Assembly (NCBI RefSeq): GCF_026004075.1
Contig: NZ_BPIK01000001.1
Span: 2,148,041 to 2,212,040, forward strand
From: Meiothermus sp.
GTDB lineage: Bacteria; Deinococcota; Deinococci; Deinococcales; Thermaceae
Reading direction: 5' to 3'
DNA length: 64,000 nucleotides
Part shown: positions 19,981-23,084 of the stretch, piece after piece
How the letters are laid out: each line of letters begins with the position of its first letter
Position numbering within the stretch: position 1 is the stretch's first letter
The notes under the pieces: generated by a model
Database searches by the model: none
Told to the model about the DNA's origin: nothing
What the model saw: only the letters and a program-made list of their open reading frames with translations
Program-made: the position numbers and the translations under genes

Positions 19981-19987
19981 TGTGCCG

Positions 19988-21658
19988 ATGGTTTTTGTAC
20001 TGGCAACCCTGGCCTACCTGTTGGGCGCGCTGCCCCTCGGCTACTGGGCCATCCGACGCCTGACCGGCCAGGATCCCCGCCTGGCCTCGGCCTATAACCT
20101 GGGCCTCGAGAACACCCTGGAACACCTGGGCCCAGGCCCGGTGCTCCTGGCCTGGGGCCTGGACTTTCTCAAGGGGCTGCTAGCGGTCTGGATAGGAGGG
20201 CAGTTTGGGCTCTCCTGGGCGGTAATCTTTGCGTTCCTGGTCTATCTGGGCCACCTCTACCCTCCCCGGTTTTTGGCTCAGGGAACCCTGCTGCGGGGGC
20301 GGGGTGCGGGCGTGCTGGTGGGGGTGGTGCTGGGCCTGTACCTGAGCGGCCTCTCCTACCTGCTCACCCTGGTGGTCTTGCTGGTAGCGGCCCTGAGCCT
20401 CTTATTCAGCCGGTACGCCTCGCTGGCTGCCCTGACCATCCCCGGCACACTGGCCCTTTTGCTCACCTTCGAGCCGATTACCGGCTGGGCCAGGCTGGCG
20501 GCCTGGGGGCTGCTCCTAGCCGCGCTCTGGCGCTACAAGGAAAACATCGGGCGGATGCTGGAAGGCACCGAGCCCCGCCTGGGCGAACCACCACCGCTGC
20601 CATCAGACAAGCAGGTGGTCTGCGCCTTCATGATTCATCCCCTCACGGTGGACGACCTGTTCCAGAGCCCCCGCTTCCGCTGGGCCCGACCGCTGGTAGA
20701 GCGGGGCCTCATCTCCCAGAGCCTGGTGGAAAACCTCGCCGAGGCCATCCGGCCCATGAAGGTGGGGGAGTTGCGCGGGGTTAAGACCACCGACGGGCGG
20801 GAGATTCGCTGCCACCTGATCTCGGCCCCCCTGCTGCCCCACCAGATTACCGGCAAGCCCGAGCTGGCCACCCAGCGGGCCATCCAGGGGGCCCGGCTGG
20901 CCAGGGAGCTGGGCTGCACGGTGGTGGGCTTAGGGGCCTTCTGGAGCGTGGTGGGCGAGAAGGGCCGGATGGTGCAGGAGGCCGTACCGGAGATCGAGGT
21001 GACCAACGGCGGGGCCTACACCGCCGGAACCGTCAAGGCCGCCATACCGGGCATCCTGGCCCACTTCGAGCAGTCCGGGCGCCGCCTTCAGGAGGCCACC
21101 GCGGCAGTGGTGGGGGCCAACGGGGTGGTGGCCTTTGGGATTGCCCGGCAGATTGCGCCGCTGGTTGGGAAGCTGATTCTGGTGGGGCGCAACCAGGAGC
21201 GCCTGGAGAAAAGCGCCGCCACACTCAAGCAGAACCTCGAGCGCAAAGGCCAGCCCGTCCCCCAGCTTATCGTGAGCACCGATATATCGACCATCCGCGA
21301 GGCCGACCTCATCTTCACCGCCACCTCCGACCCCCAGCCGGTTATCTTCCCCCAGCACGTCAAGCCCGGTGCCTGGATCTACGACGAAGGCGTACCGCCC
21401 GACGTGGACGCCTCGGTGAAGCAGGTGCCGGGGGTGCGGGTGATTCCCGGTGGGGTGGTGCGGCCGCCGGGGGCCATGACCGGCAACCTCGACCTGCACT
21501 TCGGCGAGGGGGCGGTGCCGGCCTGCCTGGCCGAGACCATGATTCTGGCCGCCGAAAAGGCCTATGAGCGAAAGAGCCTGGGCGGCGAGACCAAAAGCGA
21601 AAACATCCAGTTTTTCGTGGAGCGGGCCGAGGCCCTGGGTTTCAGGGTAGTGGACTAG
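19988..21658 (+). CDS. PlsY-like membrane acyltransferase domain fused to acyl-ACP-reductase-like domain
   Basis: The 556-residue protein joins two enzymes. Residues 1-190 form a multi-helix membrane domain resembling PlsY (acyl-phosphate:glycerol-3-phosphate acyltransferase): LLGALPLGYW, a degenerate SxxNxGxxN loop (SAYNLGLEN), LDFLKG, and GHLYPP with LRGRG in place of KGGKG. Residues about 210-556 resemble cyanobacterial long-chain acyl-ACP reductase: VGLGAFWSVVGEKG, NGGAYTAGT, and a Rossmann loop VVGANGVVAFGIARQ near residue 380. This suggests handling of activated fatty acids, perhaps to fatty aldehyde. Thermus-group lipids contain long-chain alkylamines, so supply of that precursor is a possible role; this is inference. 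Confidence 0.75.
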   Translation: MVFVLATLAYLLGALPLGYWAIRRLTGQDPRLASAYNLGLENTLEHLGPGPVLLAWGLDFLKGLLAVWIGGQFGLSWAVIFAFLVYLGHLYPPRFLAQGTLLRGRGAGVLVGVVLGLYLSGLSYLLTLVVLLVAALSLLFSRYASLAALTIPGTLALLLTFEPITGWARLAAWGLLLAALWRYKENIGRMLEGTEPRLGEPPPLPSDKQVVCAFMIHPLTVDDLFQSPRFRWARPLVERGLISQSLVENLAEAIRPMKVGELRGVKTTDGREIRCHLISAPLLPHQITGKPELATQRAIQGARLARELGCTVVGLGAFWSVVGEKGRMVQEAVPEIEVTNGGAYTAGTVKAAIPGILAHFEQSGRRLQEATAAVVGANGVVAFGIARQIAPLVGKLILVGRNQERLEKSAATLKQNLERKGQPVPQLIVSTDISTIREADLIFTATSDPQPVIFPQHVKPGAWIYDEGVPPDVDASVKQVPGVRVIPGGVVRPPGAMTGNLDLHFGEGAVPACLAETMILAAEKAYERKSLGGETKSENIQFFVERAEALGFRVVD

Positions 21659-21662
21659 CGGC

Positions 21663-21739
21663 GTTCCCTGAGCCTGTCGAAGGGAACCCCGATCCTCCGA
21701 GCCTCGTTCCGCTGGCTTCGACTGCTTCGGCAGGCTCAG
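21663..21739. repeat. REP-like palindromic sequence
   Basis: CTGAGCCTGTCGAAG (21668-21682) recurs inverted as CTTCGGCAGGCTCAG (21725-21739) with one mismatch, and the first copy lies in a smaller hairpin GTTCCCT/AGGGAAC (21663-21687). Similar GAGCCTGTCGAA motifs are dispersed in many bacterial genomes. The rest of the 265-bp spacer shows only the promoter of the next gene. Confidence 0.6.
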
Positions 21740-21910
21740 CAACCGGCTCAGTCAACTGTCCCAGGGGCAAGAGGCGCTGTTGGGGTTTCACCCGGTCAGT
21801 ATCCTGGTTTTTACATCGGCGATGACTTCGGCGGGCGTTTGAAGCGCTCTCAGGGTGGGCCATGCGCGAACCAGTATAGCGCGCCGGCCCCCGGCCGGGG
21901 GCCGCTGGGG

Positions 21911-21916
21911 TATCCT
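21911..21916 (+). promoter_or_regulatory. -10 box, leaderless glycosyltransferase gene
   Basis: TATCCT ends 7 nt before ATG 21924 and fixes that start over a longer in-frame extension. Confidence 0.5.
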
Positions 21917-21923
21917 GTACCCG

Positions 21924-23084
21924 ATGCTCTCCTGGCTGGTGTGGCTGTTCCTGGGCGTGGCGCTCCTCTACTGGCTGACCTACGCGGCGTTCGCCGCCCT
22001 CAACCTGCGCCTGATGCCCGCCCTGCGCGAGCTGCACCCCGCCGAGCCCCCCCGCCTCCCCCGCCTGAGCCTGATCGTCCCGGCCAGCAACGAGGCCGAC
22101 ACCCTCGAGGCCGCCCTCGCCAGCAAGCTGGCCCAGGACTACCCCCACCTCGAGTTCGTCCTGGTCAACGACCGCTCCACCGACGGCACCGGCGAGGTCA
22201 TGGAGCGGATGGCCGGGGGCGACTCGCGCATCAGGGTGCTGCACGTCCGCGAGCTGCCCCAGGGCTGGCTGGGCAAGGTGAACGCGCTGCACCAGGGCGT
22301 GCGGGCCGCCAGTGGCGAGTGGCTGCTGTTCAGCGACGCCGACGTGCACTTCGCCCCCGGGACGCTGCGCAAGGCGGTGGCCTACGCGCTCCGGCGGGGC
22401 CTCGACCACCTGGCCGTCATCCCCCACCTGCACTCGAGGTCGTTCTGGCTGGACGTGGCGGTGGCCTTGTTCTCGCGGGTCCCGGTGGTCTCGATGCCCT
22501 ACTGGGCGGTCGAAAACCCCAAAAGCAAGACCTCGGCGGGGATGGGAGCCTTCAACCTGGTGCGGCGCGAGGCCCTGGAGAAAACCCCCGGCCTCGAGTG
22601 GCTGCGCATGGAAGTGGGTGACGACGTGGGGCTGGGCCTGATGCTCAAGCGCACCGGGGCCAGGCAGTCGCTGGTCCACGGGCGAGGCACGGTAGGGGTG
22701 CTGTGGTACGAGAACTTCGCCCAGATGCTACGCGGCACCGAGAAGGTCTGGCTGGCCAGCGTGGGCAACTACAGCCCGCCAGGCATCGGGGCGTTCGCTT
22801 TGGTGTTCTTGCTCCTCGAGATGAGTCCTTTTCTGGCTCTGGCGGTCAACCCCTGGCTGGCCGTCGCGTTGTTGATCCTGAGTTTCTACACCGCCGTCGT
22901 CGCCAGCCGCTTTAACGAACAGGCCCTGGCTCCCGCACTGGCCTGGCCCATCGGCTCGCTGATTCTGGTCTACTCGGCCCTCCACGCCGCCTGGGTCGCC
23001 CAGCGGCAGGGTGGGCTGGTCTGGCGTGGCACCTTTTATCGCCTGAGCGAGTTGCGCAAAGGTAAGCGCTTTCGCGCCTTCTGA
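21924..23084 (+). CDS. Family 2 membrane glycosyltransferase (CruC/CrtQ-like)
   Basis: The 386-residue protein has one N-terminal membrane helix, a GT-A catalytic domain (LSLIVPASNEADTLEAAL near residue 50, VLVNDRSTDGT near 82, DADVHF near 141), and three or four C-terminal helices. The order resembles family 2 glycosyltransferases that act on lipids or carotenoids (CrtQ/CruC type). Thermaceae make glycosylated carotenoids and glycolipids, either of which could be the acceptor. mqnB follows after 8 nt and may be co-transcribed. Confidence 0.78.
   Translation: MLSWLVWLFLGVALLYWLTYAAFAALNLRLMPALRELHPAEPPRLPRLSLIVPASNEADTLEAALASKLAQDYPHLEFVLVNDRSTDGTGEVMERMAGGDSRIRVLHVRELPQGWLGKVNALHQGVRAASGEWLLFSDADVHFAPGTLRKAVAYALRRGLDHLAVIPHLHSRSFWLDVAVALFSRVPVVSMPYWAVENPKSKTSAGMGAFNLVRREALEKTPGLEWLRMEVGDDVGLGLMLKRTGARQSLVHGRGTVGVLWYENFAQMLRGTEKVWLASVGNYSPPGIGAFALVFLLLEMSPFLALAVNPWLAVALLILSFYTAVVASRFNEQALAPALAWPIGSLILVYSALHAAWVAQRQGGLVWRGTFYRLSELRKGKRFRAF

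Follow-up and report, generated by a model that had tools for sequence, protein, structure and literature searches.

The window, that is, the whole 64,000-nucleotide stretch of Meiothermus sp. DNA analysed in this work, carries on its forward strand a single uninterrupted ORF at 19988–21658. It runs from an ATG at 19988 to a stop codon at 21658 and encodes 556 amino acids; translation could alternatively begin at a GTG at 19982. The predicted protein is composed of a PlsY-like integral membrane domain (residues 1–200, 19988–20587) and an acyl-thioester/acyl-ACP reductase-like domain (residues 209–556, 20612–21655). Our literature search found no description of a PlsY-reductase fusion.

In Pfam, residues 8–190 matched G3P_acyltransf (PF02660; E 1.4e-27; 97 bits against a cut-off of 24) and residues 364–486 gave a Rossmann match, Shikimate_DH (PF01488). 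In NCBIfam, residues 3–198 matched PlsY (TIGR00023; 69.6 against an equivalog cut-off of 137.2), residues 255–552 matched PigE (NF053554; 107 bits) and residues 261–534 matched the acyl-ACP reductase AAR (TIGR04058; 59.3 against an equivalog cut-off of 449.7 bits). All three scores are below the respective equivalog cut-offs, and the best match of the reductase half is PigE, above AAR. By its sequence, this half is a distant relative of AAR and not AAR itself. No aminotransferase domain was detected within the ORF with Pfam and NCBIfam.

Sequence comparison with the PDB retrieved PlsY [5xj5], AAR [6jzu] and PigE [4ppm]. An AlphaFold model built from 44 fusion sequences had a mean pLDDT of 91.9 and a pTM of 0.87; according to Foldseek, its first half resembles PlsY [5xj7] with a TM-score of 0.82 and its second half AAR [6jzu] with a TM-score of 0.76, both by target length. 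Since the two-domain ORF recurs across genera of the class Deinococci (41–99% identity) and the model is confident, the fusion is not a product of chance or an artefact. Thus, the preliminary description of the locus, which had proposed a PlsY-like acyltransferase fused to an acyl-ACP-reductase-like domain, is confirmed for both halves by profiles, PDB sequence matches and structure comparison.

Conserved and altered residues of the two halves

The putative catalytic residue of the reductase half, Cys513, lies in the motif PACLAET (residues 511–517, 21518–21538, forward strand) and corresponds to Cys294 of AAR and Cys296 of PigE. The motif PAC(L/M)AE(T) is invariant in 50 fusions of the class, with cysteine in 50/50, and the same cysteine is present in every stand-alone, PigE and AAR sequence that was aligned. 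In AAR, Cys294 bears the acyl thioester, and R189 and R193 hold the ribose phosphate of NADPH (PMC7089970). The latter two correspond to the arginines of RNQER (residues 401–405, 21188–21202, forward strand), conserved in 46/50 (R401) and 50/50 (R405) fusions. The dinucleotide loop GANGVVAFG (residues 376–384, 21113–21139, forward strand) is the counterpart of AAR G162ATGDIG168, keeps the spacing of its first two glycines and is invariant or nearly so in the 50 fusions. An equivalent of AAR R314 was not located in the alignment of the fusion with AAR. The preliminary description had named missing cofactor-binding residues as an argument against its proposal. We found the catalytic cysteine and the cofactor residues to be invariant or nearly so, and the reductase half is predicted to be competent.

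The fusion thus shares with cyanobacterial AAR [6jzu] the fold, the cysteine, G162xxG165 of the loop and R189/R193, but the identity is about 30%, TNGG stands for AAR TTGN and GANGVVxFG for AAR GATGDIG, and a membrane domain is found where AAR has its partner ADO. Stand-alone reductases of the AAR/PigE-N type from genomes labelled Armatimonadota have the same domain and cysteine (30–40% identity to the fusion), but they lack the PlsY half and carry TTGN and GATGxIG as in AAR. The changes specific to the fusions, TNGG for TTGN and GVVxFG for GxIG, suggest an altered fit of substrate or cofactor. PigE (prodigiosin) and TamH (tambjamine) likewise contain an AAR-type reductase with the same cysteine; their chain also includes a class III aminotransferase, whereas the fusion has a PlsY-like membrane domain and any aminotransferase would be encoded by a separate gene. 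PigE is reported to reduce the thioester and then transaminate the aldehyde (PMC8341465), and the related TamH makes fatty amines from acyl-ACP, likewise by way of an aldehyde, by means of its AAR-type reductase and class III aminotransferase.

The PlsY half was compared with PlsY of A. aeolicus [5xj5–5xj9], from the structure of which the residue roles were taken (PMC5700162). It has the PlsY fold (by target length, the TM-score is about 0.8) as well as the equivalents of His92 and Gly105, and resembles PlsY in part in the region of the acyl-phosphate loop. The two acyltransferase loops that had been called degenerate, SAYNLGLEN (residues 34–42, 20087–20113, forward strand) and LRGRG (residues 102–106, 20291–20305, forward strand; the FKGGKG loop of PlsY), are indeed present with key PlsY residues replaced: Ser35 by Ala and Thr41 by Glu in the former, Gly102 and Lys104 by Arg in the latter. 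The motif 3 of PlsY is represented by RYKENIGR (residues 182–189, 20531–20554, forward strand), in which Tyr takes the place of His177. At Ser35, Arg45, Lys104, Asn180, Ser142 and His177 of PlsY the window fusion has Ala, Glu, Arg, Asn, Ala and Tyr, respectively.

These replacements are not restricted to the window. Unlike the separate PlsY genes of the class, in which Ser35, Arg45, Lys104, Ser142, His177 and Asn180 are each found in 20/20, the Deinococci fusions (n = 111) retain Ser35 in 7, Ser142 in 15, His177 in 16 and Asn180 in 73 cases, and position 45 is Arg or Lys in 97/111. The Glu of the window fusion at this last position (residue 45, 20120–20122) is unusual in comparison. At the same time two residues have become nearly invariant: Glu at position 41 (108/110 Deinococci fusions) and Arg at position 102 (110/110 Deinococci fusions and 10/10 from other phyla, i.e., all 120 scored), where the separate PlsY genes have Gly in 20/20. 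All these counts rest on automatic alignment with closely related sequences, some species being entered twice, once per genome collection, and are to be read as a pattern and not as independent events.

In the acyl-phosphate hole of PlsY the picture is mixed. His89 in GHLYP (residues 88–92, 20249–20263, forward strand), the equivalent of His92 in the 'phosphate hole', is present in 110/110 Deinococci and 10/10 other fusions, and Gly105 is kept in 110/110 Deinococci fusions and, like the His92 equivalent, in all fusions; Val106 and Ala107 are changed, and Thr41, which in PlsY contacts the acyl carbonyl (PMC5700162), is replaced by Glu. The PlsY half is less conserved than the reductase half (mean pairwise identity of 40 and 58%, respectively, in 50 fusions of the class). 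Judging from the residues, the PlsY half of the Deinococci fusions has lost the G3P clamp and is not an ordinary PlsY. Because Glu41 and Arg102 are newly near-fixed beside the kept His92 equivalent and Gly105, we conclude from the alignments that its function has been altered under selection and has not decayed. A separate ordinary PlsY gene is present in the window genome, as in most other class genomes listed.

Three fusions from outside Deinococci (L114, L116 and L122) keep the canonical clamp except Ser142, and the fusion is the sole PlsY match in their genomes. Therefore, the ancestral fusion may also have been an active acyltransferase.

Distribution, descent and candidate partners

In total, the fusion was found in 107 of 111 genomes of the class and in 84 of the 85 near-complete ones (at least 90% complete, at most 5% contaminated); absences in MAGs may represent assembly gaps. 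The exception is G100, a Trueperaceae-like genome (96% complete) with a PlsY match only and no fusion, for which an assembly gap is possible. The gene is present in every near-complete Thermus-like genome and in the type-strain chromosomes of M. ruber (G031) and O. profundus (G011); close relatives of the window fusion (97–99% protein identity) include those of M. taiwanensis (L070) and M. ruber. It should be mentioned that the 111-genome set comprises no genus of the size of Deinococcus, the classic alkylamine producer, and the DdrB pattern suggests that this genus is not included. A control genome named Deinobacterium chartae exists, and the fusion is present in f2, a family that gives a strong DdrB match. 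The lack of Deinococcus among the fusion matches was at first considered a possible refutation and then dropped, since the genus apparently lies outside the set and its lack is a matter of missing data.

Phylogenetic analysis placed the reductase halves of all fusions in one clade (SH-aLRT 100), within which the Deinococci fusions form one clade (95), largely in family order; stand-alone relatives fall outside the fusion clade (99, same tree), and PigE and AAR lie on long branches, so that their placement is not trusted. In the PlsY tree, the halves from Deinococci fusions likewise group together as one clade, to which the separate PlsY do not belong. Since both trees give single clades that largely follow family order, the fusion most likely dates back to the common ancestor of the sampled class and was vertically inherited. 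A tblastn search against plasmids gave a sole match, PigE of Thioclava.

The surroundings of the gene are not conserved between families or even within the genus, and no lipid or aminotransferase gene is consistently adjacent; operon context was therefore rejected as a hint to function.

Beyond Deinococcota, the fusion was found in MAGs labelled Armatimonadota, Actinomycetota and Bacillota (the phylum names are those of the records). Two other phylum-level groups carry stand-alone reductases of this type almost universally. We know of no alkylamine lipid in these two groups. Of the 151 genomes of one group, the majority encode the reductase and PlsY in two separate genes, and all six fusion genomes (6/6) contain only the single fusion match. 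The fusion here stands in place of two genes, which argues that the reductase and PlsY activities belong together. A counter-example is provided by a group of 43 genomes, in which five fusion genomes also retain a stand-alone reductase.

In two phylum-level groups the gene of the stand-alone AAR/PigE-N-type reductase is preceded, immediately or nearly so, by one for a protein of about 300–320 aa with no Pfam or NCBIfam match, in 20/20 loci of one (L236–L255) and 14/20 of the other (L305–L324). This protein was not found beside any fusion locus examined and is possibly a partner of the stand-alone enzyme.

A partner of another kind, an aminotransferase, was sought among the class genomes. A class III aminotransferase is encoded elsewhere in the window genome [G000:C1:1331654-1332907]; it is 41% identical to the aminotransferase half of PigE. 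This PigE-type gene is single-copy (L134, L139), 72–98% identical across families f1 and f4, present in all near-complete genomes of these families but one, and absent from families f2, f3 and f5 at a threshold of E 1e-90. Among NCBIfam models it scores highest against putrescine aminotransferase. Housekeeping genes surround it; RNase R adjoins it in most of the genomes inspected, often along with a YbgC-like thioesterase, and in some genomes spermidine-synthase-like and agmatinase-like genes lie nearby. Nearly all genomes of another phylum-level group have it, with or without the fusion. It was therefore rejected as an obligate partner, being found at this E threshold in two of five families only, among housekeeping neighbours and elsewhere independently of the fusion; in the window genome it is a lead and not evidence. 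A second class III family, from f2, f3 and f5, was rejected as well: it occurs in G100, which lacks the fusion, and is missing from the fusion-bearing genomes G092, G099 and G110. No aminotransferase family matches the full distribution of the fusion in the class genomes.

Possible function of the fusion

The preliminary description had linked the gene with the long-chain alkylamines of Thermus-group lipids and proposed to check whether the two co-occur. The N-glyceroyl alkylamine phosphoglycolipid has been documented in M. ruber, M. taiwanensis, T. oshimai, T. thermophilus and D. radiodurans, and its glyceric acid is reported as D (PMC3398001); for O. profundus the assignment is by TLC match (Rf) only. 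In M. ruber and some Thermus species it is the major phospholipid, and it has been proposed as a chemical marker of the lineage. A 2022 paper on T. thermophilus lipids only proposed a path for attachment of the fatty amine and named no fatty-amine gene. Among the documented producers recognisable in the genomes analysed, co-occurrence holds for M. ruber, M. taiwanensis, Thermus and, on TLC, O. profundus. The fusion is not confined to Deinococcus-Thermus. A near-universal gene fits a near-universal lipid, but this is a correlation within one lineage. Since the fusion extends beyond the phylum and stand-alone reductases are near-universal in two further groups, the gene family is not specific to alkylamine lipids.

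With a probability of roughly 0.45, we favour the hypothesis that the fusion is a membrane-anchored NADPH-dependent fatty-acyl reductase with a PlsY-derived acyl-binding module, whose aldehyde most likely goes to the alkylamine lipid. The PlsY-derived half would not acylate G3P but would bind acyl-phosphate, or an acyl chain from a different donor, close to the reductase. The activated chain would pass to Cys513 as a thioester, and NADPH bound at GANGVVAFG and RNQER would give a hydride, so that a long-chain (mostly iso-branched) aldehyde is released at the membrane face. In the Thermus group this aldehyde would most likely be aminated by a separate PLP aminotransferase to yield the alkylamine of the phosphoglycolipid. 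Homology argues strongly for a fatty aldehyde as the product. The residues argue moderately for acyl-phosphate as the donor, the natural guess because PlsY-type pockets bind it; acyl-ACP or acyl-CoA delivered straight to the reductase could also serve. The alkylamine lipid is a plausible destination.

If so, the fusion is a good candidate for the first step, aldehyde formation, towards the fatty amines of the Thermus group, and the fold of an essential phospholipid enzyme has been re-used as a substrate-binding module. A conserved single-copy candidate also opens the alkylamine question to one knockout in T. thermophilus. Several findings speak against this reading: the lack of a consistent lipid or aminotransferase neighbour, the restriction of the PigE-type aminotransferase to two of five families, G100 without the fusion, the Thr41 to Glu replacement, and the wide occurrence of stand-alone reductases in two phylum-level groups from which we know no alkylamine lipid. 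A bolder form, which we consider doubtful, is that of a fatty acyl-phosphate reductase, in which the former PlsY domain would capture acyl-phosphate in the membrane for the AAR-type cysteine reductase and so divert phospholipid precursors into aldehydes from which alkylamine lipids would be built throughout the Deinococcota lineage. To our knowledge, no described enzyme reduces long-chain acyl-phosphate in such a way, and the fusion could be the first reductase whose substrate is a long-chain fatty acyl-phosphate.

The lack of a single aminotransferase tracking the fusion, together with the near-universality of the reductase family in two other groups and the indication that M. ruber lipids include minor quantities of long-chain diols, would be accounted for if the aldehydes served another product: fatty alcohols, long-chain diols, hydrocarbons or some unknown lipid common to the other reductase-bearing phyla. 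We regard this as unlikely, if worth keeping in mind, as the alkylamine phosphoglycolipid has the prominence in the lineage that matches a near-universal gene and the nearest characterised relatives by profile are amine makers. The near-invariant Glu41 and Arg102 beside the kept phosphate pocket, which speak for altered function over decay, would also fit a PlsY half that still uses acyl-phosphate as an acyltransferase with a new acceptor or donor. For example, it might form the glyceroyl-alkylamine amide from 1,3-bisphosphoglycerate, a source of D-glyceroyl in keeping with the reported configuration of the lipid, while the reductase half supplied the aldehyde precursor of the amine. However, both the amine acceptor and the glyceroyl-phosphate donor are hypothetical, the acyl pocket of PlsY suits long chains, and the PlsY half is the more variable of the two, which makes this improbable.

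We give still less credit to the reverse direction, a salvage of fatty aldehydes through the cysteine thioester to acyl-phosphate for phospholipid synthesis. PlsY does use acyl-phosphate (PMC5700162), and the PlsY halves of L114, L116 and L122 keep the clamp except Ser142 and are the only PlsY match in their genomes; but AAR, PigE and TamH are all reductases, and the Deinococci PlsY half, accompanied by a separate PlsY, probably cannot act as an ordinary G3P acyltransferase. It is just as hard to believe that a PlsY paralogue and a reductase without specific joint function have been retained through drift, or because the protein senses the acyl supply. The unconserved operon context and the faster evolution of the PlsY half could be taken in this sense, but the purifying selection on the new residues of that half, the invariant catalytic residues, the near-universal retention and the fact that in another group the fusion stands in for two separate genes all speak against it.

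Two features of the window lie downstream of the fusion. A family 2 glycosyltransferase gene (21855–23081) follows it directly; no match was found in the flanks of 49 related loci, and it therefore does not belong to a conserved operon. In the intergenic region just past the fusion stop, an inverted repeat (CTGAGCCTGTCGAAG / CTGAGCCTGCCGAAG) is located at 21668–21739; the window contains two matches, where 0.15 would be expected at random.
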